DNA from: a virus | Strand: one strand, 5' to 3' | Virus record (IMG/VR): IMGVR_UViG_3300007775_000001 | Coordinates: 1-64,000 of that record | DNA: 64,000 nucleotides | In this document: positions 2,516 through 60,033 of the stretch, one piece after another | Numbering within the stretch: the first letter of the stretch is position 1 | Layout: every line of letters starts with the position of its first letter | Made by a program: the position numbers and the translations under genes | Notes under the pieces: generated by a model | Seen by the model: the letters and a program-made list of their open reading frames with translations, nothing else | What the model was told of the DNA's origin: nothing | The model's database searches: none

Positions 2516-5500
2516 GTGGCCGAATTCACTCCGAAGACGTTCCCTCAGATTCTTGGGGATATGATTGCGACCGTGGTGGCTAACTCTCCACTCACGGATG
2601 CGAGTGTGGGTTCTGTGGTTAGAACCATGCTTGAGGCTGCGGCTCAGGAAGATGATGAGCAATACTTTCAGATGCTCAACATCCTGCGTAGCTTCTCGCT
2701 GGATACGACAACAGGATTAGACCTTGACGCGCGGGGTGAGGAGTTCGGTATCACGAGACAGCAGTCCCAACAGGCTACCACTGTCGTAACGTTGGGAGAC
2801 TCTTCTTTCTCGAAAGTGCAGACGGGTGTGTTCTCTGGCGCTGTTGGGCCGCTCTCTGGTGAGACCGCTGTCAAGGCGGATAGTTCGACAGGATTCCCGG
2901 TAAGTGGAAGCATCATCATTGGTCGTGGCACTCCGAATTCTGAAACGGTCGGATACTCTTCGATCACGGCTGGTCTTGGTTTTGTGACCTTCAACCTGTC
3001 TGCTGGCTTGTCTTTTGATCATGGGACGGACGAGAGCATCATCTTGTCTCAGGGAGGCAATCGGGTATTCACGGCTGGTCTTGTTGTGGCTGTTCCTGCT
3101 TCGGACTTGAGCGAAAAGATTGACTTTTCGCTCGATTCGACTGTGACTCTTCTTGATGGCGAGGTGTCTCTGACGGGTGTTGCTGTTACAGCGGTTGTTG
3201 GGGGGTCTGGTGTCAATGTCTCGATTGGTGCGATTAGCACTTTCGATTCACCTCCGTTCTCAACTGCGACGGTTACCAATCCCAACCGTGTAACAAACGG
3301 TAGAGACCTGGAGGGTGATCAGGAGTATCGCGACAGAATCAAAGATAGGATTCAGTCTCTATCTCGTGGAACGGGTTTGTCCATCATCTCAGGTGTGGCA
3401 GGTCTGGTTTCTTCGGAAGAGAACAAGCGTGTTGTGTCGGCTTCTATCGTTGAGCCAACCACTGTGCCTGACATTGTCAAGTTGTACATCGATGATGGCA
3501 CGGGATTCATCCCTTCGAGTTCCGGTGTTGGATTTGAGGAGGTTGTTGCGGTTGCAACGGGTGGAGAACAGTTCCTTGGAATAGACAACGTTCCGGTGAT
3601 GAAGGCTTCCTTGTTGTCAACGCTTTCTGAACCATTCGATTTCTCATCTGGTGGCGAAACGCTGACGGTGGACGTTGGGAACGATACCGAGACGGTGACG
3701 TTTGCAACGAGTGATTTTGTCGATCCTGCGAATGCCACTGCGGTTGAAGTTCAGGTCAAGTTCAACAAGGCTTCTTTGTTTGAAGCTCGTGTTGCATCCA
3801 ATGGCACGGTACGCATCTTCGCGAGACGGAACAAGGAAGATGACATCATCGTAACTGGCGGAACAGCGAATGCGATTCTTGGGTTCCCTCAGAGTTCGAG
3901 GCGGTACACAACACATCTTTACAAGTCGAATCGGAATGCTATTTCTTTGCTCAGTAAAGATGGTGCAACCGCTCGAATCGAATCTGGTAACGCTGAGACC
4001 TTCGATCTTTCTGGGACAACGTTCAATCTGTGCGTTGTGATCGATGGGAAGACTGACACGCCGATTCAGATTCCCTTGTTCACATCGGACTTTGTCGATC
4101 CTGCGAATGCCACTGCTGAAGAGGTTGTGGCAGCGATTGGTGCGCGTGCTCCTGGTCTCTCCAGTGAAGCTTCTTTGGTTGGGACACGGGTTAAGCTGTT
4201 CTCGCGGTTGCTTCTCAGTGTGGATTCGAAGATTCAGGTTGTGGAGAACTTCGATCAGGTCTTCAACGAGGAGAGCAGTGTTGACACAGACCGTACAACA
4301 GAACTGAGTGCTCTTGCCGGGACAGCGAATCTGTTTGCGGTTAATAGCGATTACGTTCATGTGGGTCACGATACGGTCAAGTTCAATTCGGTCTATGTCC
4401 AGATGAGCACTCCTTCATCTGATGACATTGGGTTGCTTGTCGAGTATTGGAATGGGAGCACTTGGGTTCCTGTCGGTGTTTTTGACGGGACTGCTGGATT
4501 CACCCAGAATGGGATCATCACGATTCCGCCACTGTTTGATTGGATGAAGACCGCTGGCCCCGGAACGTCTGCTTACTGGCTTAGGCTTCAGAGAACGACG
4601 GTGACGGTGACCACACCTCCTGTCGCACAATTGGTCAGGGTGTGTTCTGCGAACGCTGTATTGGCGTTTCCTTCGGGTGTTCAGTCCGGGGCCGATGCCG
4701 ACTATACGGTGAACCGTTTTGTGGGCCAGATAGAGCTTCTGACATCCCTCGTGGCTGGTGAAAAACTTGTTCTTGGATCGGATGACACACGGGCCTTTGT
4801 CACAACTGTCAACTCTGATACCTACAACTTCACAGGTGGTGGACAGGGATTGAACGTCACAATTGATGGGGTTGCTCAGAGCTACACCTTCCTTGTGGGG
4901 GATTTTGTTGATCCTGCGAATGGTACAGCCGCCGAAGTGGCAGCCGCTTTGAACGCTGGCTTGACAGGTGTATCAGCCGAAGTGGTTGATACTAACTATG
5001 TCAAGCTGACCATCAAGAGTCACGATTCGACAGGAACAATCATCGTAACTGGCGGAACAGCGAATGTGATTCTTGGGTTCCCAACGACTCAGGTGATTTC
5101 TCTCCAATCGCACTACGCTTTTGCTGAGTCTGGTTCTGCGGAAAACTACAGCTTCACAGTTGGCGATCTGGTCATTGTTGTGATCGATGGTGAAGATGTT
5201 GATCTGTTCTCAGTGCCATGTACACATGCAAGCGTATTGACCGGGGCGACAGATACGACGCATGTGATAGATTCCAATTTGTCATCGTATTTCCCGAATG
5301 CGACAGACCTTGTTGGTTTCGAATTGGAGATGACAAGTGGTGCTCAGAGTGGTGAGAGAAAGACGATCACTGCCTACGATCCTGGCACCGGAACAGTGAC
5401 GTTGAACGCTGCGTTGACTGGAACTCCGTTGGCGGCAGACACCTATGAAATCTTGCCTGTCACGGCAGAAGACGTGGTCTTCTTCTGGAACAACAAGAAA

Positions 5501-6053: not shown

Positions 6054-6069
6054 GTTTCTACGTAGAAAC
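6054..6069. repeat. Dispersed palindrome copy 1
   Basis: Perfect 16-bp palindrome GTTTCTACGTAGAAAC, extended by one pair to 18 bp (6053-6070). It fills the junction between the J-like gene (stop 6050-6052) and the next gene (ATG 6075). No Shine-Dalgarno sequence lies between it and the ATG. It is one of seven copies in the window. Confidence 0.95.
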
Positions 6070-16146: not shown

Positions 16147-17183
16147 TGGATGTGTTCTTCGAAGACGATCCGCACGAGACATTTGTCTCGTCACAGGAAC
16201 GGTATCCAAACTTTTCGCTCGAAGAGTACCTGAAAGAACTGGCGGTTCCGTTCAAGGTACATGCTTCGGACGATCACGAGGAGCATGCAATATGCTGTCC
16301 TGAGTGCGTCAATCGTGGTGAAGAACGTCCTGATATCAAGTATAGGTTGTGGATCAACCACGAGAAGGGGTCGTTCACGTGCTACAACTGCGACTGGAGT
16401 GGGACGCTCGTATCCTTGGTGCGTTCACTGTCTCAGGTGACGGTTGAGAAAGCAATCAAGATTCTGAGTGGTAAAAGTCTTGACCCTATGGAACACATGA
16501 ATCTGAAGCTCGTGATGGAGGAGCAGGAAGATGTGAGCTTCGGTGAAGACGATGTTCTGAAGCCCGTAGACCTTCCTTACGGGTTCGATCCGATCACGGG
16601 GCCACATCCATACCTGGAGAAGCGTGGTATCCCATGGGAATACGCGAGAGATCATGAATGGGGTCACTGTTCTGTCGGGTTCTACGCGAATCGGATCATC
16701 GTGCCTACCTTCATGAACAGTGTGCTCGTGTACTGGCAGGCGCGTGCTACCTGGGAAGATAACAGCAAGGACTTCAGGAAGGTGCTGAATCCCACACAGG
16801 CAAGCTCGAAACCAATTCTGTACCAGTATGATGATGCCAAGGAATTCTCACACATCATTATTGTCGAGGGGTTTACAGATGCAGTGAAGGTCGGGCCGGA
16901 TGCGGTAGCCACAAATGGCAAGCGGTTGCATGGAAAGCAGGTCGGGTGGCTTTCGAAGACAAAGGCTCAGACTGTCACGCTGATGTGGGATGAAGATGCC
17001 TGGAAGACTCGTAAGCGCAAGAACGGAGGGATCGTGCAGTCTCCTATCATGAGTGCTGCTGATCTGTTGAAGGTGCGTTTCCATGTCCGTTTGGCACGGA
17101 TGCCAGACGCGAACGATGCTGGATCATACCCCTACAAAAGTCCTGCTCTCCGTAAGATCATCGAGGATGCCACTCCAGCTTGA
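16143..17183 (+). CDS. DNA primase, DnaG-type
   Basis: 346 residues. N-terminal zinc-binding domain with CCPEC near residue 50 and CYNC near 82, followed by a TOPRIM domain marked by IIIVEGFTDAVKVG near residue 238 and a DED-like acidic site (MWDEDAWK). Makes RNA primers for the lagging strand. It is shorter than bacterial DnaG (about 600), lacking the C-terminal helicase-binding domain, as is usual in phages. Its stop codon overlaps the -35 box of the next promoter. Confidence 0.88.
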   Translation: MMDVFFEDDPHETFVSSQERYPNFSLEEYLKELAVPFKVHASDDHEEHAICCPECVNRGEERPDIKYRLWINHEKGSFTCYNCDWSGTLVSLVRSLSQVTVEKAIKILSGKSLDPMEHMNLKLVMEEQEDVSFGEDDVLKPVDLPYGFDPITGPHPYLEKRGIPWEYARDHEWGHCSVGFYANRIIVPTFMNSVLVYWQARATWEDNSKDFRKVLNPTQASSKPILYQYDDAKEFSHIIIVEGFTDAVKVGPDAVATNGKRLHGKQVGWLSKTKAQTVTLMWDEDAWKTRKRKNGGIVQSPIMSAADLLKVRFHVRLARMPDANDAGSYPYKSPALRKIIEDATPA

Positions 17184-17208: not shown

Positions 17209-17230
17209 CATACCGCAACTACTCATTCTG
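17189..17230. promoter_or_regulatory. Inverted repeat straddling the -10 and start region
   Basis: CAGAATGAGT (17189-17198) and ACTCATTCTG (17221-17230) are perfect 10-bp inverted copies 22 bases apart. One lies in the promoter spacer, the other in the early transcribed region just before CTGAACGGAGAGAG. Placement suggests an operator; only the right arm is in the RNA. Confidence 0.65.
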
Positions 17231-17243
17231 AACGGAGAGAGCT

Positions 17244-17663: not shown

Positions 17664-17704
17664 GGTTTTGAAGGATCAGATTGAACCTGAACGGAGTGGC
17701 GACC

Positions 17705-18593: not shown

Positions 18594-18615
18594 AGGAGGG
18601 GCCTTGGCCCCTCCT
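18594..18615 (+). terminator. Strong GC hairpin after 18592, terminator-like
   Basis: GGAGGGGCC (18595-18603) and GGCCCCTCC (18606-18614) pair perfectly, extended by one A-T pair. There is no T run after it, so it may act as a processing or stability hairpin rather than a strict intrinsic terminator. The next promoter starts 17 bases later. Confidence 0.6.
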
Positions 18616-18631
18616 CTGTTCAGAGCTACCC

Positions 18632-18660
18632 TTGACCTTTTGTAGCACATGTAGTACACT
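18632..18660 (+). promoter_or_regulatory. Promoter for the deacetylase gene
   Basis: TTGACC (18632-18637), 17 bp, TACACT (18655-18660), preceded by ATGTAG. The leader variant CTGAACAGAGGAGA follows before ATG 18698. Confidence 0.85.
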
Positions 18661-18697
18661 ATAGGTGAAGGGTGGTTCTGAACAGAGGAGATTGACC

Positions 18698-19557: not shown

Positions 19558-19827
19558 ATGTCGTTCAATGTGACAGAAGAGACGCTTGAGATCGATGCTG
19601 ACAACATGAAACCAACCAGTATTCGGTTTGACGCGGATCAGAAGAAGTACCTGAAGGCCCTGATGATTGCTTTCCGCAAGAAGACGGGCGAACGGGCAAC
19701 GCTGGGATGGCTGATCAAGAAGCTCATTGAGACAGCCGTCCCAGCGTTCCTAGAAGAGTACGGGATCACTTCGGAAGAGATCAGCGAGATTGAGAAGACG
19801 ATCAAGGTGGTCAAAAAAGAGGTTTGA
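19558..19827 (+). CDS. Ribbon-helix-helix-like DNA-binding protein
   Basis: 89 residues from ATG 19558, 11 bases after the deacetylase. PTSIRFDADQKKYLKALMIA followed by a helix (LGWLIKKLIETAVPAFLEEY) fits the RHH fold, with the short strand (TSIRF) for DNA contact. Probably a small regulator; the inverted repeat at 17189-17230 or the dispersed palindrome could be its target, which is speculation. Confidence 0.62.
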   Translation: MSFNVTEETLEIDADNMKPTSIRFDADQKKYLKALMIAFRKKTGERATLGWLIKKLIETAVPAFLEEYGITSEEISEIEKTIKVVKKEV

Positions 19828-19852
19828 CTTTCTGTATGACATGTAGTACAGT
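19824..19852 (+). promoter_or_regulatory. Promoter for the AAA+ gene
   Basis: TTGACT (19824-19829), 17 bp, TACAGT (19847-19852), preceded by ATGTAG. The leader AACCTGAACGGAGAGA (19873-19888) follows before ATG 19895. Confidence 0.85.
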
Positions 19853-19894
19853 TTGATTGTGGTTGAACGAGTAACCTGAACGGAGAGATTGACC

Positions 19895-20794
19895 ATGACA
19901 GAATTCAACGATCTGACCATCGGTGATCATACCCTGGCCGCTCGTGTGCCTGTGGTGGATTCGGAAGATGCCTTTGTTCCTGCCGTGAACAAGGCGTACT
20001 GTTGGCCCGACACGATCAGTGATATCACTCAGGACATCAACGAGAACAAGAAGGTGCTCCTGACGGGTCACACGGGAACCGGCAAGACCAGCCTCTTCAT
20101 GCAGTTGGCCGCTCGCATCGGGCAACCGGTGATGCGCTCCAACATGAACGGACAAATCACGGTCGGTGATTTTGTCGGTATGTGGACAGTTCAAGGTGGG
20201 CAGACGGTGTGGACGGACGGTGTCCTTCCCTACTGTATGCGTCACGGGTTCTGGCTCGTGCTGGATGAACTGGACTTCGCGGAACCTGCGATTCTGGCTG
20301 TGCTCAACAGCGTTCTGGAACCAAAGGGTTCCCTGATGTTGAAAGAGAAGGGTCATGAGGTTGTGCGACCACACAAAGACTTCCGGCTCTTCGCTACTGC
20401 GAACACGGTGGGCTGTATGCAGGAATACCGGTCGCTGTACCAGGGAACAGGAATCATCAACGAGGCGTTCCTGGATCGGTGGCGTGTGTATATGATCAAT
20501 TATCTGAAGCCGGAAGATGAGGCCAAGGTTATCGCGGAGTCGGTGCCTCGCATGCGTGAGAACATCACTCAGGTCATGGTGCGCGTCATGTCGCTCGTGC
20601 GCGAAGCTTTCAAGAAGGATGAAGTCCGCTGCACGTTCAGCACGCGACGTGGGCTGGATTGGGCGGAACTGATGGTACGTCACCGTCATCCACTGAAGGC
20701 CGCCGAATCGAGTATCTTCAGCAAGGTTTCCCCGGAAGATGCCGAAACGATCAAGGGGATCATCAAGCGGGTCATGAACCTGCGGGATGAGTAG
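19895..20794 (+). CDS. MoxR/CobS-like AAA+ ATPase
   Basis: 299 residues from ATG 19895. Walker A GHTGTGKTS (58-66), Walker B LVLDELD (121-127), sensor FATANTVG near residue 170 and an arginine finger region (GIINEAFLDRW). This is the dynein-related AAA+ clade that includes cobaltochelatase CobS, MoxR and RavA. Such ATPases work with a VWA-domain partner; here the CobT-like VWA gene is two genes downstream under an identical leader. Phages of several groups carry CobS/CobT-like pairs without the rest of cobalamin synthesis, so a chaperone-like remodelling role is more likely than chelation. Confidence 0.87.
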   Translation: MTEFNDLTIGDHTLAARVPVVDSEDAFVPAVNKAYCWPDTISDITQDINENKKVLLTGHTGTGKTSLFMQLAARIGQPVMRSNMNGQITVGDFVGMWTVQGGQTVWTDGVLPYCMRHGFWLVLDELDFAEPAILAVLNSVLEPKGSLMLKEKGHEVVRPHKDFRLFATANTVGCMQEYRSLYQGTGIINEAFLDRWRVYMINYLKPEDEAKVIAESVPRMRENITQVMVRVMSLVREAFKKDEVRCTFSTRRGLDWAELMVRHRHPLKAAESSIFSKVSPEDAETIKGIIKRVMNLRDE

Positions 20795-21167: not shown

Positions 21168-21410
21168 ATGGCCGAAGATATGGACACCGTTCTTGGGATG
21201 GCATTCGGGCAGAAAAAGCCCGCTAAACCGGAACGCAAGGGGTTCACGCGGCGGCTGGATGCACCTGATCGTGATCTGTCGTGGGCGCACCAAGTCGAGC
21301 TAGTTCAGGACGAGGAAAAGCTTGACACCAATGCCAAGAAGGCAGAATTCGACCGGCAGATCGATGAGGCCACTGCACCTGATTTCATGAGTGACCTACA
21401 AGACATTTGA
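21168..21410 (+). CDS. Small charged protein with C-terminal tag
   Basis: 80 residues, very hydrophilic (KKPAKPERKGFTRR; DTNAKKAEFDRQIDE), probably largely disordered. It ends in PDFMSDLQDI, a copy of the shared C-terminal motif. Its last codons overlap the -35 box of the next promoter. The body looks like little more than a carrier for the tag. Confidence 0.72.
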   Translation: MAEDMDTVLGMAFGQKKPAKPERKGFTRRLDAPDRDLSWAHQVELVQDEEKLDTNAKKAEFDRQIDEATAPDFMSDLQDI

Positions 21411-21435
21411 CATTCGAGGGAGACTGTAGTACAGT
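21407..21435 (+). promoter_or_regulatory. Promoter for the VWA gene
   Basis: TTGACA (21407-21412), 17 bp, TACAGT (21430-21435), with CTGTAG before the -10. The leader AACCTGAACGGAGAGA (21451-21466) follows before ATG 21472. Confidence 0.85.
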
Positions 21436-21471
21436 AGTACCGTAGTGAGGAACCTGAACGGAGAGATTGAC

Positions 21472-23325
21472 ATGAGCGGTTTTCATTTCCTCAGTGCGAT
21501 GCAGCGCATCGGTCGGACGATTGCCCGCCAATACGGGATCAACGTGATCTACGAGGGCAACAGTCCCGGCACCGATGGCAAGACCATCGTGCTTCCCGAT
21601 GTCCAAAACCTGACCGATGAACTTCGGCATGATCTTGATGGGTATCTTGATCATGAGGTCGGACATTGCCGACACACTGATTTCAACGTTCTGCGGAGCG
21701 TTGACAATCGGTTCCAATCGGAACTGCTGAGTGCGCTGGAAGGCGTGCGGGTGGATCGTGAGATGATTCGCGATTACCCTGGCAGTCAGTTCCACATCAA
21801 CGATTTGAACGACAAGCTTCGCGCCAAAGCTGCTGAGAAGTGGGTTGGCACTCCCACTGCGATTCGGCTTCTGCATGGTGTTCGTGACGGGATGCGTGGT
21901 CAACCCATTGTGAGTGACCACGACACAGCCCGTTATCTCGATGCCTTGGGTGATGAGATCAGCAAGCTCAACACCTACACTTCCACTGGTCAAATGCGAG
22001 ACGCTACCGCTCGCATCATGAAGATCATCCTGGAAGAACGAGAGCGCGAGCAAGAAGAGCAGCAACAGCAGCAACAGCAGCAACAGCAAGCCGGTGGTGC
22101 TGGTGGTGGTGATTCTCAATCCAAGGGTGGTGGTCAGAAGCAAGAAGATGGCGACCAGGATCAAGAAGATGGCGACCAGGATGAAGACCAAGATCGGAAG
22201 GGTGACGGTGATGGTGGTGGGGACAGCGAAGACCATGACCAGGAGGGTGAAGGGGACGGTGACCAGGATCAGCAAGCCGGTGGTGGTGCTGATGAGAAAT
22301 TCGATGACATGATCACTGAAAACAGCGGTGCCGACAATTCCGAATTCGACAACCATGCGACCAACCTTCAGCAATTGATGAACGGTAACATGGCTCCCGA
22401 AATTGAGGGTGAACCGGAAATACAAGGTGGTCGGCCCTGGCATGACGGTTTCAGTGATGCCAAGCACATTCCCCTGACTACCCGGTTCGATCAGATTCAT
22501 GACGTGTCGGGTGGTGGTGATCCTGTCCGGTACAACGTTCTCCGGAACAAGGTCAAGGGGATCATGAGTCCGATTCGCCGCGAGATGGAACGTGTTCTGA
22601 AGGTGAAAGAGAACGCGCGGTGGCGGATGGATCGTGAGCGTGGTCACATCAACAACCGGTCGTTGTCTCAATTGGTTGCGAGCCCTGGCTTCCGGACTCC
22701 CTTCAAGGAATTCCAGAAGACTGAGACAACCAACGTGGCGATTCAACTGCTCGTTGACCTGTCGGGTTCCATGGCTGGCTCTAAACTTCAGACGGCGAAA
22801 GAGGCTGCGACAGCCATGGCCGAAGTTCTTCGCTCCCTGGATATCCCGTTCGAGGTGACCGGGTTCCATAGCGAGGGTGACTACGACATGCAAAAGGTGG
22901 CGCGCGAAGTTGGCGATATCAGTCGCTTCAATCGGACTCATGAACGGCTCGATCATTGGGTATACAAGTCGTTCGGGGATTCGCGGATGGATGGTATCAC
23001 GCGGATGGAGTCCGGTGGCAACAACACCGATGGTGAGTCGGTGCGATGGGCAGCGGCCCGTCTGGCAGAGCAGAAACAGAAACGGAAGATCATGATTGTC
23101 TTCAGTGACGGTATGCCTGCCTGCCATGGCAACATGAGCATGCTCAACGGTGACTTGGTGCGCGCGGTCAAAGAGATCGACCGCTCCGGGATTGAAGTGG
23201 TTGGAGTGGGTATCGAGCACAATGGAGTGAGTCGGTTCTACCCTAACAACATTGCGATCAACAACGTGGAAGACCTGACCGGTGGTGTGCTGCGGAAACT
23301 CTCTTCGATGTTGACAGAGGCATAG
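21472..23325 (+). CDS. CobT-like VWA protein with HExxH-type motif and low-complexity linker
   Basis: 617 residues from ATG 21472. The N-terminal domain carries LDHEVGH (HEVGH at 61-65), as in CobT-like proteins and reminiscent of zinc metallopeptidases. A linker at about 195-277 starts with a run of Gln and turns into Gly/Asp/Glu/Gln repeats. The C-terminal VWA domain has a MIDAS motif DLSGS near residue 428 and a Thr (NNTDGES) near 515. It is the expected partner of the MoxR/CobS-like ATPase at 19895, sharing the same leader. In the cobaltochelatase family the pair drives metal insertion; in phages the target is unknown. Confidence 0.86.
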   Translation: MSGFHFLSAMQRIGRTIARQYGINVIYEGNSPGTDGKTIVLPDVQNLTDELRHDLDGYLDHEVGHCRHTDFNVLRSVDNRFQSELLSALEGVRVDREMIRDYPGSQFHINDLNDKLRAKAAEKWVGTPTAIRLLHGVRDGMRGQPIVSDHDTARYLDALGDEISKLNTYTSTGQMRDATARIMKIILEEREREQEEQQQQQQQQQQAGGAGGGDSQSKGGGQKQEDGDQDQEDGDQDEDQDRKGDGDGGGDSEDHDQEGEGDGDQDQQAGGGADEKFDDMITENSGADNSEFDNHATNLQQLMNGNMAPEIEGEPEIQGGRPWHDGFSDAKHIPLTTRFDQIHDVSGGGDPVRYNVLRNKVKGIMSPIRREMERVLKVKENARWRMDRERGHINNRSLSQLVASPGFRTPFKEFQKTETTNVAIQLLVDLSGSMAGSKLQTAKEAATAMAEVLRSLDIPFEVTGFHSEGDYDMQKVAREVGDISRFNRTHERLDHWVYKSFGDSRMDGITRMESGGNNTDGESVRWAAARLAEQKQKRKIMIVFSDGMPACHGNMSMLNGDLVRAVKEIDRSGIEVVGVGIEHNGVSRFYPNNIAINNVEDLTGGVLRKLSSMLTEA

Positions 23326-23326
23326 C

Positions 23327-23611
23327 ATGCTGAATGCGCGGCGGCTTCTGGAGTATTGCGAGGAGCATGACATCTATGTTCCGAAGGGTGCGACTCGCGC
23401 CTATCTGGAAGCCGCTGTTGCCAGACATGCATTGCATGGTAAGAAAAGCGATCAAAAGGGCTGCTTTGGGTTCTGGCAGCGCGAGTTGATGGATTGTATG
23501 ACTTGTGACTACGAGTCCCCGTGCTTTGAGGTTTCGATGGGTACAGAGCGCGACAAATACATGAGGGGAGTCGATAGTCAGGAGAACCCCAAGATTCGAT
23601 TCGCGAAGTAG
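23327..23611 (+). CDS. SAP-like small protein with Cys-rich tail
   Basis: 94 residues, starting 1 base after the VWA stop. The first 35 residues (LNARRLLEYCEEHDIYVPKG then AYLEAAVARHAL) resemble a SAP/HeH helix-extended-helix DNA-binding fold. A Cys-rich part (CFGFWQRELMDCMTCDYESPC) may bind zinc. Cotranscribed with the VWA protein. Confidence 0.68.
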   Translation: MLNARRLLEYCEEHDIYVPKGATRAYLEAAVARHALHGKKSDQKGCFGFWQRELMDCMTCDYESPCFEVSMGTERDKYMRGVDSQENPKIRFAK

Positions 23612-23624
23612 AGGCCGCGCCCAA

Positions 23625-23663
23625 TGTCCGGTACTGTTCTCTCTCCGTTCAGGTTGCCGGACA
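23625..23663 (+). ncRNA. Stem-loop displaying an antisense copy of the shared mRNA leader
   Basis: TGTCCGG (23625-23631) pairs with CCGGACA (23657-23663), closing a 25-nt loop. The loop contains TCTCTCCGTTCAGGTT (23640-23655), the exact reverse complement of the leader AACCTGAACGGAGAGA found before the AAA+ gene (19873-19888) and the VWA gene (21451-21466), and a 14-nt complement of the WGR leader (17228-17241). It lies in the 3-prime untranslated part of the VWA transcript. The layout is that of an sRNA seed loop; an inverted leader remnant is the alternative. Confidence 0.6.
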
Positions 23664-23723
23664 AAGGGTGCGGTTTCTCATTTTGAGATGTGAAAATGAC
23701 AGTCAAGATTTCATTGACGCAAG

Positions 23724-23757
23724 GCAAGGTCGCCAAAGAGTATCATGGTGACCTTGC
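23724..23757 (+). promoter_or_regulatory. 11-bp hairpin in the non-coding region
   Basis: GCAAGGTCGCC (23724-23734) pairs with GGTGACCTTGC (23747-23757) with one G-T pair. No T run follows. It lies between the VWA operon end and a possible promoter, so it may end or protect the upstream transcript. Confidence 0.5.
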
Positions 23758-23773
23758 AAGAGTAAGATAGGTA

Positions 23774-23802
23774 TTGACACTCTCTGTAAGGTGTGAGACG
23801 AT
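23774..23802 (+). promoter_or_regulatory. Possible promoter of a non-coding RNA
   Basis: TTGACA (23774-23779), 17 bp, GACGAT (23797-23802). The -35 and spacing are ideal, the -10 is weak. No gene starts for 345 bases downstream. Confidence 0.45.
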
Positions 23803-23808
23803 GTCACT

Positions 23809-24140
23809 CCCTCAAGGCCGGTAAGCTTTGAGAACAGCCAACCAAGAGCCCGTCTGTAACCTCTAATGAAGAGGGTGGTGACGGGGGGTATGCGGTGCAA
23901 TTCCGTATGGTCACATGGTTGACCTGAGAGCGGCTGGAGCGCAGTCCCTAGCTCGAATAGCTCAGACAGGGGTGCCGTTAGGGAACGGCAACGTGGGGTT
24001 GACAGCCCGTAGTCGCGGAACCCATCCGTCCAGACTAGACTGATAAACTGGAAGAGAAAAACCAGTCCCTATGGTCTGCGTCGGTGAAGCTCAGGTGAGC
24101 CCATGCCCGTTGGGGGTAGGGGGGAACTGTTTTCCAGAGC
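23809..24140 (+). ncRNA. Candidate structured RNA
   Basis: The whole stretch 23612-24146 has no supportable gene. From about 23809 many compact helices can be drawn: CTCAAGG/CTTTGAG, a two-tier stem CCCGTC/GACGGG enclosing CCTCT/AGAGG, ATGCGG/CCGTAT, GCCGTT-AGGG-AACGGC, GGGTT/AACCC and GCTCA/TGAGC. That density of perfect stems is unlike the coding DNA around it. No family is recognised; a group I intron was considered and rejected. Boundaries are approximate and I see no clear terminator. Confidence 0.5.
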
Positions 24141-24146
24141 TTCCTG

Positions 24147-24410
24147 ATGGAAGACTTAACTACTAAACAACTGTTACTAGAGGTATGCTTAGAAATGAAC
24201 ACTCAGAAAGTAAATGACGAGAAGGAAGAGGGAGTGGATGGAAATGGATGGAGTCCAACACTGGAGCTTCGGTTTTTGAAGAAGAAGGTGAAGCTTGTTG
24301 AAGGTGGTGATGCGTTCGACAGGTTTATTCTCCAGCAGAAGTGGATCGACATGAACAACATCTCGAAGAAAGAATGGCGTGATGTTCCCTCTGTCAAAGA
24401 AGGGTCATGA
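24147..24410 (+). CDS. Small hypothetical protein
   Basis: 87 residues from ATG 24147; ATG 24195 is possible. Charged and helical (EVCLEMNTQKVNDEKEEG; FDRFILQQKWIDMNNISKKEW). ATGA overlap with the following gene supports it as real. Confidence 0.6.
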   Translation: MEDLTTKQLLLEVCLEMNTQKVNDEKEEGVDGNGWSPTLELRFLKKKVKLVEGGDAFDRFILQQKWIDMNNISKKEWRDVPSVKEGS

Positions 24411-55758: not shown

Positions 55759-55802
55759 GTAGTCGTGGGAAGGAAGTGAGAACTCTGAATGGAGAGAGGG
55801 TC

Positions 55803-58658: not shown

Positions 58659-59017
58659 TGACACGAGAAGAAAACGACAAGCGGGAACGCCAGATCAGAT
58701 GTGTACGTAAGATGCTGGTCACCCTAGACCAGTTGTTGACTAGGAATACGTTCGATCAGGCTGAGAAGCATTACTATGGCCGCAAGAATGAGATTGTTGG
58801 CGGTGGCAACAACAGTATTTTTACGGGTTTGCGCAACGCTGCGTTTAGTGGTCAGCCATTCTACAAGTTCTCAGACGGTCAGACTGAGGTGGCTTATGAC
58901 TATCTGGATGAACGATTGGTGCTCGTGAATCCCAGCAAGCCTGACATGGAAGAGCGTCTGAAGAGAGACGGGGCCATGTTCGTTCCGCTCGTGGAACTGA
59001 TCAAGAAGTCGAGCTAG
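58658..59017 (+). CDS. Hypothetical protein
   Basis: 119 residues, starting on the last base of the previous stop. Charged and helical N-terminus, then a FTGLRNAAFSGQPFYKFSDG segment. The G of its TAG stop starts palindrome copy 7. Confidence 0.74.
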   Translation: MTREENDKRERQIRCVRKMLVTLDQLLTRNTFDQAEKHYYGRKNEIVGGGNNSIFTGLRNAAFSGQPFYKFSDGQTEVAYDYLDERLVLVNPSKPDMEERLKRDGAMFVPLVELIKKSS

Positions 59018-59034: not shown

Positions 59035-60033
59035 ATGAGCAAGAAACAACCACGTATGGGCAAGAGCCTGAAAGAAGCCCTGGACAAGAAGGTGCGTGAC
59101 CAAGCTATGATCGCCGTCATGGATCATGACTTGGGTGGCGATATGTCGGATGCTTTTCGGTATTTGCTCAAGCCCATGATAGAGATTCCGGAGAAGAAAC
59201 CCAAGGAGAATAAGCCTGTTCCTCCTCTTGTTCCTATTGTGGTCGTGGCTGTGATGATGGAAGAGATGCCCATTGACAATCACGGTGGGCATGCGTGGGG
59301 CTTCAGGTCGGTTGTGCGTCATTTTGGTCAGGGGAGCAATAACGCTCGTACATACGCTGAAGACGATCTGTCGTTGGTGTGGAGAATCGAAGGTGAGGTT
59401 TATTATCAATCGTGGGAGTACCATCAAGCTCTTGGCTACGCGATGAACTACGTAGCTCAGAAGTTTGGTGCAAAGCGATACGAGCTACGAGTTGTGGGGC
59501 CGATGAAGTCCATGGAAAGTCTTTATCCATATCTGCATTGGGACTCTCTCCCCGTGTCTGCCAAGAGTTTCACATTGAACTGTTCTGGGATCGGTGACTG
59601 GCCTGCATTCAATAACTTCGCCATGAAGGAGTTGGGTTGGAAGAAGCATGAGGTCAGTGACTTCGTGACCAATCCACCACGGTTTCCTGTGGCTTTGTTG
59701 ACCACGAGAACCCTTGATTCTGCATTTGTCTATGCTGCGAAGCTATTGAAGGTCAAGGGCACTGCCCATCTGATGACCGATCAGGTTGCTTCTCGTCTGC
59801 CTGGACATCCGCAATCGGAGCGTGACAAGTACACCTACCAGGAAGGCGGAATTACAGACGAGAAGGGAATCCGTCAAGCCGTCGTGTTACGGAGACAGTG
59901 GTCGGTTTGGCGTCGTGAGTTGGCGTCTGGCAAAGTGACTCTGAAGGAGATCGAGAAGATCATCGAAATCAACAATGGGATCGATGACCGCGAGACAGAG
60001 ACCGATATGCTCAAAGAGCTAGGGAGTCTGTGA
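59035..60033 (+). CDS. Hypothetical protein with C-terminal tag
   Basis: 332 residues. Basic N-terminus (SKKQPRMGKSLKEALDKKV), a Pro/Lys-rich stretch with a Val-rich segment (VPIVVVAVMMEEMP), and a mixed C-terminal domain (AVVLRRQWSVWRRELASGK). Ends in TDMLKELGSL, a copy of the shared C-terminal motif. No function recognised. Starts directly after palindrome copy 7. Confidence 0.76.
   Translation: MSKKQPRMGKSLKEALDKKVRDQAMIAVMDHDLGGDMSDAFRYLLKPMIEIPEKKPKENKPVPPLVPIVVVAVMMEEMPIDNHGGHAWGFRSVVRHFGQGSNNARTYAEDDLSLVWRIEGEVYYQSWEYHQALGYAMNYVAQKFGAKRYELRVVGPMKSMESLYPYLHWDSLPVSAKSFTLNCSGIGDWPAFNNFAMKELGWKKHEVSDFVTNPPRFPVALLTTRTLDSAFVYAAKLLKVKGTAHLMTDQVASRLPGHPQSERDKYTYQEGGITDEKGIRQAVVLRRQWSVWRRELASGKVTLKEIEKIIEINNGIDDRETETDMLKELGSL

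Follow-up and report, generated by a model that had tools for sequence, protein, structure and literature searches.

The question raised by this locus is whether a hairpin that lies past the last gene of a phage gene group, and whose loop is complementary to a leader shared by several genes, acts as an antisense element on those genes or has some other origin. The window is the whole 64,000-nt stretch analysed; it forms part of an IMG/VR record of 114,950 bases (the 115-kb contig, IMGVR_UViG_3300007775_000001). The genes of this phage include a baseplate J-like protein, a primase, a DNA polymerase, SbcCD and a replicative DnaB helicase, the last having SPO1-like phages as its top INPHARED matches (~27% identity).

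Gene group ahead of the hairpin

The gene group comprises a CobS-like AAA+ gene (19895-20794, + strand; Pfam matches AAA_5 and CbbQ_C), a CobT-like VWA gene (21472-23325, + strand; Pfam matches CobT_C and CobT) and, between the VWA gene and the hairpin, a 94-aa gene (23327-23611, + strand) with four conserved Cys, homologues in five other records (38-46% identity) and a stop codon that overlaps the base of the outer stem. No family match was found for the 94-aa protein, and a fold search of its AlphaFold model against the PDB gave no significant match; the model has a pLDDT of 73, and the conserved residues are C46, C57, C60 and C66. Putative early-type promoters, identified by consensus match only, precede the AAA+ gene (TTGACT-N17-TACAGT, 19824-19852, + strand) and the VWA gene (TTGACA-N17-TACAGT, 21407-21435, + strand), with similar ones at 17180 and 17635. 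A separate promoter of the form TTGACN-N17-TACA(G/C)T precedes most of the genes whose leaders match the loop, and it is from this promoter type that these genes are inferred to be early. As a separate observation, the -10 regions of the promoters at 17180, 17635, 18632, 19824, 21407, 33972 and 56757 carry a TGTAGTACA-like element, often repeated (GTAGTACATGTAGTACA), and similar elements are found in the promoters of two relatives described below (TGTCGTACAGTGTCGTACA in G005 and AATACACTGTAATACACTGTATTC in G007), so that an operator may overlap the promoters of these three phages.

Hairpin structure and complementarity to leaders

The whole 3'-UTR hairpin (23610-23678, + strand) consists of a 13-bp outer stem (AGAGGCCGCGCCC, 23610-23622, with GGGTGCGGTTTCT, 23666-23678), an AA/AA internal loop, a 7-bp inner stem (TGTCCGG, 23625-23631, with CCGGACA, 23657-23663) and a 25-nt loop (23632-23656). 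Its fold energy is -41.7 kcal/mol against -20.5 for shuffled sequences (z = -7.25), and none of 200 shuffles was as stable. Within the loop, the anti-leader TCTCTCCGTTCAGGTT (23640-23655, + strand) has a mean unpaired probability of 0.71 and is the exact complement of AACCTGAACGGAGAGA, which occurs at 19873-19888 before the AAA+ gene and at 21451-21466 before the VWA gene. No canonical terminator was found 3' of the window hairpin by a terminator scan. At the Rfam gathering score only two tRNAs were detected in the window and nothing credible near the hairpin, and a known RNA family was ruled out as its identity for want of an Rfam match. Beyond it lie ~500 bases (23680-24190) that lack a convincing gene and contain several local hairpins, with an ORF of 24 codons at 23697 and the motif TTGACA at 23775; this region has no Rfam match and its overall fold is ordinary (z -1.4).

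The leaders adjoin the start codon and overlap the Shine-Dalgarno sequence, and the main target leaders lie 2-6 kb from the hairpin. On the + strand, the loop pairs with the Shine-Dalgarno-containing AAA+ leader over 18 bp with wobble (start 19895; duplex -30.4 kcal/mol), with the VWA leader over 16 bp (start 21472; -32.0 kcal/mol), with the leader of a WGR gene at 17225-17241 over 14 bp (start 17244; -27.8 kcal/mol), with that of a DUF6744 gene at 17684-17699 over 13 bp (start 17708; -26.9 kcal/mol) and with that of a further small gene at 55782-55797 (ACTCTGAATGGAGAGA, then ATG) in an 18-bp run with wobble (-29.4 kcal/mol). A leader at 64504, beyond the window on the contig, pairs over 12 bp. 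Duplex energies of the loop with the leaders range from -25 to -32 kcal/mol, and the best 1% of random windows begin at -22. Seven matches to the 16-mer were counted in the window at ≤3 mismatches where 0.81 were expected (0/100 shuffles reach 7), and across the 115-kb contig the 23632-23656 loop is the best same-strand antisense for the WGR, DUF6744, AAA+ and VWA leaders. A chance origin of the match was rejected by the shuffles and by the cognate specificity given below. Use of the loop copy as the leader of a minus-strand gene was also rejected, there being no matching promoter and no credible ORF at the site; the 128-aa minus-strand ORF there is antisense to the conserved 94-aa gene. An initial annotation made from sequence alone had described the 7-bp stem, the 25-nt loop, the exact complement in the AAA+ and VWA leaders and 14 nt of the WGR leader, all of which held exactly; it had missed the outer 13-bp stem and the conserved 94-aa gene between the VWA gene and the hairpin.

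The same element in related phages

Relatives were sought in IMG/VR via the DNA polymerase, AAA+, VWA and 94-aa proteins. The hairpin was looked for 3' of the gene group, so its position is partly a condition of the search, whereas complementarity to the cognate leader is not. In five diverged phages a hairpin is found at the equivalent place, past the last gene of the operon and ahead of a terminator-like stem, and each loop complements the AAA+ leader of its own phage, which is the target common to all six. In G004 (3300020186_000001) the arms TTCCGGTG and CACCGGAA enclose CTCTCCGTTTAGCCACTAAGAAC, a terminator follows, and the AAA+ leader is GGCTAAACGGGGAG. In G005 (3300032770_000029) the arms CCACGTC and GACGTGG enclose a loop with GCGTTTTAGCC, again before a terminator, the hairpin overlaps the 3' end of the reading frame of the 94-aa homologue, and the leader GGCTAAAACG precedes four genes, the AAA+ and VWA genes among them. 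In G006 (3300023179_000001, also L043) the arms TTTGAGGATG and CATCCTCAAA enclose a loop with TAACCTTTGTTTTGGCG, followed by a long stem with a short T-run; here the leader GCCAAAACAAAGG was predicted from the loop first and then found before the AAA+ gene and a minus-strand gene. An 18-nt antisense match at 4330 of the same phage was rejected, being the leader of a minus-strand gene. In G007 (3300037851_000102, also L084) TGGTGT and ACACCA flank a loop with TTCCTTGTTAGCCC, a terminator follows, and the AAA+ leader is GGGCTAACAAGGAG, the core of which also stands before five other genes, with a near copy before a seventh. The last relative, L121 (3300035099_000048), was found by a whole-locus scan for loops matching the AAA+ leader region and not by a test fixed beforehand; its hairpin (ACCGGA and TCCGGT around a loop with TTAGCTCCTCCTCC) lies directly after the VWA gene and before a terminator-like stem, its stem stability is at shuffle level (z 0.06), its leader AGGAGGAGCTAA precedes the AAA+ gene and the next gene, and no 94-aa gene was seen. 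L040, whose hairpin sequences are identical to those of G004, was excluded from the count.

Per phage there is thus a single antisense loop, matched by between one and seven leaders: only one clear leader was found in G004, and four to seven leaders on separate promoters in the window phage, G005 and G007. The element was absent from five relatives tested in which the AAA+/VWA pair is present (G002, G008, G010, L119 and L120). In L119 (record G011, IMGVR 3300017987_000063) the sequence AAGGAGGACAGGA occurs eight times exactly on one strand and thirteen times at ≤1 mismatch, with no exact antisense copy, that is, a leader repeat without a loop. No relatives were found in INPHARED by DNA, and none by the 94-aa protein. 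A pattern hunt of viral contigs for the promoter plus leader was at chance level, its one match proving unrelated on reading, and a hunt for the anti-leader gave five matches, also chance level.

Covariation of leader and loop

The longest Watson-Crick complement was determined between the AAA+ leader (40 nt plus the start codon) and the 3' UTR (75 nt) of each phage. In five phages the cognate runs were 16 (window), 10, 10, 13 and 13 nt against 4-9 nt for non-cognate pairs, among 120 permutations the cognate assignment ranked first (62, with 56 for the runner-up), and dinucleotide shuffles reached the cognate run in 0, 1, 3, 0 and 0 of 1500 trials (window first). The cognate run in L121 is 12 nt, reached by 0/400 shuffles. 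When leader and loop of the five phages are aligned by hand, compensatory changes on both sides are seen in 9 of 15 columns, among them C-G to G-C, G-C to A-U and U-A to C-G. The G005 and G006 leaders have one A more, which is mirrored by an additional U in the loop, and G-U pairs occur in the pairing of G004 and G007. In G005 the pairing spans 10 nt, and its value, alone among the five, falls short of significance once G-U pairs are admitted (123/1500). Parts of some loops are predicted to be paired. A general scan of 1.9 Mb for complementarity between loops and leaders gave 789 11-mer matches against ~325 in each of two controls; most of these reflect chance, palindromes and inverted leaders, and the scan does not count as evidence on its own. 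Matches of 11 nt between a loop and a leader are common anywhere in phage DNA, so the test carries information only when the place is fixed.

In five of the six phages the Shine-Dalgarno sequence lies within the paired stretch; in G005 the pairing abuts it. The claim of the initial annotation that the complementary region includes the ribosome-binding site held in the window, with a partial exception in G005, and its refuting condition, leader changes not mirrored in the loop, was checked: in the five other phages the loop mirrors the changes in the leader. Of the two routes it had offered, the 3' end of the mRNA as source of the antisense is supported by the 3'-UTR location, which in the relatives is immediately ahead of a terminator-like stem, and action in trans is favoured by the several separately promoted leaders per single loop; that the RNA is a stable species, and the direction of its effect, have not been shown.

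Proposed mechanism and alternative explanations

The element is probably an antisense regulator carried in the 3' UTR: by pairing at the ribosome-binding sites of its operon and at those of sister early mRNAs it would repress both, chiefly in trans, a reading for which there are no expression data. The hairpin, its place, the complementarity, the covariation and the several targets per loop are established by sequence, and the production of the loop as a stable RNA, repression as the effect and action in trans are inferred. The loop would be transcribed as the 3' end of the mRNA of the CobS-like/CobT-like/94-aa gene group and would pair with 13-18 nt of leader, including the Shine-Dalgarno sequence, in the genes of the group itself and in separately promoted sister genes. 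Such pairing would block ribosome binding and initiation and would perhaps expose the duplex to RNase III. Being made last, the loop would provide delayed negative feedback on the early regulon, and it would act mainly in trans because the targets sit on separate transcripts.

A cis-only arrangement would have the 3'-UTR loop pair with the 5' leader on its own transcript, as in icaR, with the other leaders alike for unrelated reasons. It is supported by G004, L043 and L121, in which one compact gene group lies between the first-gene leader and the hairpin, by the AAA+ leader being the target in all six phages, and by the single clear leader of G004. It is nevertheless considered unlikely, as four to seven separately promoted leaders all match the single loop in the window, G005 and G007, and one L043 target lies on the other strand. 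Much less room is left for a positive or processing role, in which pairing of the leader with the 3' loop would stabilise, circularise or process mRNAs and not block translation. The sign of the effect is not fixed by pairing alone, but the Shine-Dalgarno sequence is covered in 5/6 phages, and such pairing usually represses (icaR, PMC3868564).

The repeat could also be the DNA or RNA binding site of a phage protein, with the hairpin an extra inverted site, and co-change of site and protein would then mimic covariation; genome-wide co-change of sites is indeed expected for protein-binding sites too. Against this very improbable reading, all six phages have the odd copy in antisense orientation to the gene group, within a hairpin loop that follows it, G-U pairs occur in G004 and G007, and the position of the leader is constant relative to the start codon and the Shine-Dalgarno sequence. 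The remaining possibility, a functionless relic left by inverted duplication of a leader or by the leader of a lost minus-strand gene, draws some support from the antisense-looking match at 4330 in L043, which is a real leader of a minus-strand gene. It can be set aside almost entirely, as the window site has no matching promoter or credible minus-strand gene, and a relic would not follow the leader changes in five other phages.

Comparison with known systems

OppZ and CarZ of Vibrio cholerae are 3'-UTR-derived autoregulatory sRNAs that are Hfq-dependent and released by RNase E (PMC7398697). By analogy, the present hairpin would likewise end an operon mRNA with an antisense element directed at translation of that operon; unlike them, it is phage-borne, sits in the loop of a strong hairpin and matches several leaders of one shared sequence. 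Location between the last stop codon and the terminator, as in OppZ and CarZ, is met in the relatives, and the window hairpin lies after the stop with no canonical terminator; complementarity to the start of the own operon is met by 16 nt each for the VWA and AAA+ genes and for the AAA+ gene in the five relatives. In Staphylococcus aureus icaR, a 3'-UTR anti-Shine-Dalgarno motif of 7 nt (UCCCCUG) pairs with its own 5' leader, the one known target (PMC3868564). The likeness is a 3'-UTR motif complementary to the Shine-Dalgarno leader of its own gene group; the differences are a length of 10-18 nt, a leader-specific sequence, several leaders and co-evolution across phages. The icaR-type layout, with leader and hairpin on one transcript, is likely in G004, L043 and L121, and in the window the AAA+ and VWA genes are separately promoted. 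The hairpin is not filed as a member of either type because sRNA release and transcript bounds could not be tested here.

Among phage antisense RNAs, P22 sar and lambda OOP come from the strand opposite their targets (review, PMC12197685). P1 c4 and P4 CI RNA are phage antisense RNAs that serve immunity. The resemblance is that a phage-encoded RNA would pair with an mRNA of the phage at its translation start or close to it; the differences are that the present loop lies far from its targets, shares a strand with most of them and matches several genes through a common leader. The layout is not described in the relevant section of that review of phage sRNAs, and no phage example of a 3'-UTR loop paired with leaders was found in the open-access literature searched. 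Leader hairpins are known for T4 genes e, soc and 49 (review, PMC3014915); the gene e type has a local hairpin with the promoter between its arms, an arrangement that the 23625 hairpin, 2-6 kb from its main targets, does not have. The T4 gene e layout is seen at an HDAC-like gene of the window phage, where an antisense at 18611-18633, upstream of the promoter, is followed by the promoter and the leader at 18669-18691. This leader and its private antisense form a 23-bp run (21 Watson-Crick), so that a read-through mRNA would bury the Shine-Dalgarno sequence (-62 kcal/mol) and the mRNA from the promoter itself would not (-8.6).

Parallel in Cluster K mycobacteriophages

Start Associated Sequences (SAS), 13 bp long and of unknown function, were described at gene starts of Cluster K phages by Pope et al. 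2011 (PMC3203893), who noted four phages with one copy in opposite orientation, not obviously at a gene start. In Adephagia (JF704105; L217) this opposite-strand copy (58682-58694) lies, read on the + strand, in the loop of an intergenic hairpin of ~20 bp (58662-58711; z -5.9), and in Anaya (JF704106; L218) the copy near 59870-59882 likewise lies in the loop of an intergenic hairpin of ~20 bp. Because the anti-SAS lies in the loop, RNA made from the K1 hairpin would be complementary to ~16 SAS leaders in the phage that encodes it. Five pairs of the stem show two-sided changes over seven Cluster K phages (0/500 shuffles), and the loop is kept in five Anayavirus phages. Outside K1, the loop of DarthP has lost one base with the SAS unchanged, and that of Unicorn has diverged. 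No anti-SAS hairpin was found at the expected place in the stretches examined of ZoeJ and Pixie; ZoeJ has a single opposite-strand copy, located where a minus-strand gene starts, and the stretch examined of Pixie showed none. Some records annotate a small ORF over the hairpin. Neither a hairpin nor antisense is mentioned in a 2025 survey that covered SAS in 188 Cluster K phages (PMC12699233), and the anti-SAS hairpin may be undescribed, an earlier report not being excluded.

The two systems share a repeated Shine-Dalgarno-containing leader before a subset of genes and a single opposite-strand copy in a hairpin loop. They differ in sequence (window leader AACCTGAACGGAGAGA, SAS consensus GGGATAGGAGCCC) and the phages are unrelated; the SAS hairpin, unlike that of the window, does not follow a CobS/CobT gene group, and its loop has diverged outside K1. 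A bolder reading, for now doubted slightly more than it is believed, is that phages carry 'leader codes', each a shared Shine-Dalgarno leader and one antisense loop forming a co-evolving regulon, which arose at least twice (in the CobS/CobT phages and in K1). If true, it would explain SAS, whose role has been open since 2011. If the main reading holds, one phage 3'-UTR loop would tune an early gene set through a common ribosome-binding leader, and leader and loop would be rewritten jointly in each lineage. A sequence rule for other phages follows from it, namely a repeated Shine-Dalgarno leader with a single inverted copy in a hairpin loop, as does a testable SAS hypothesis for Cluster K in M. 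smegmatis mc2155, a host with easy genetics.

A further repeat in the window phage

A palindrome, TTTCTACGTAGAAA, has thirteen exact copies in the contig, most within the longer CAGTTTCTACGTAGAAACTG. Such palindromes resemble parS-like sites, a function that is untested here. The copies, 4-14 kb apart across the whole contig and both within and between genes, lie at 6055, 12458, 26033, 30766, 41597, 54770, 59018, 68603, 76424, 81727, 90824, 98367 and 109433.
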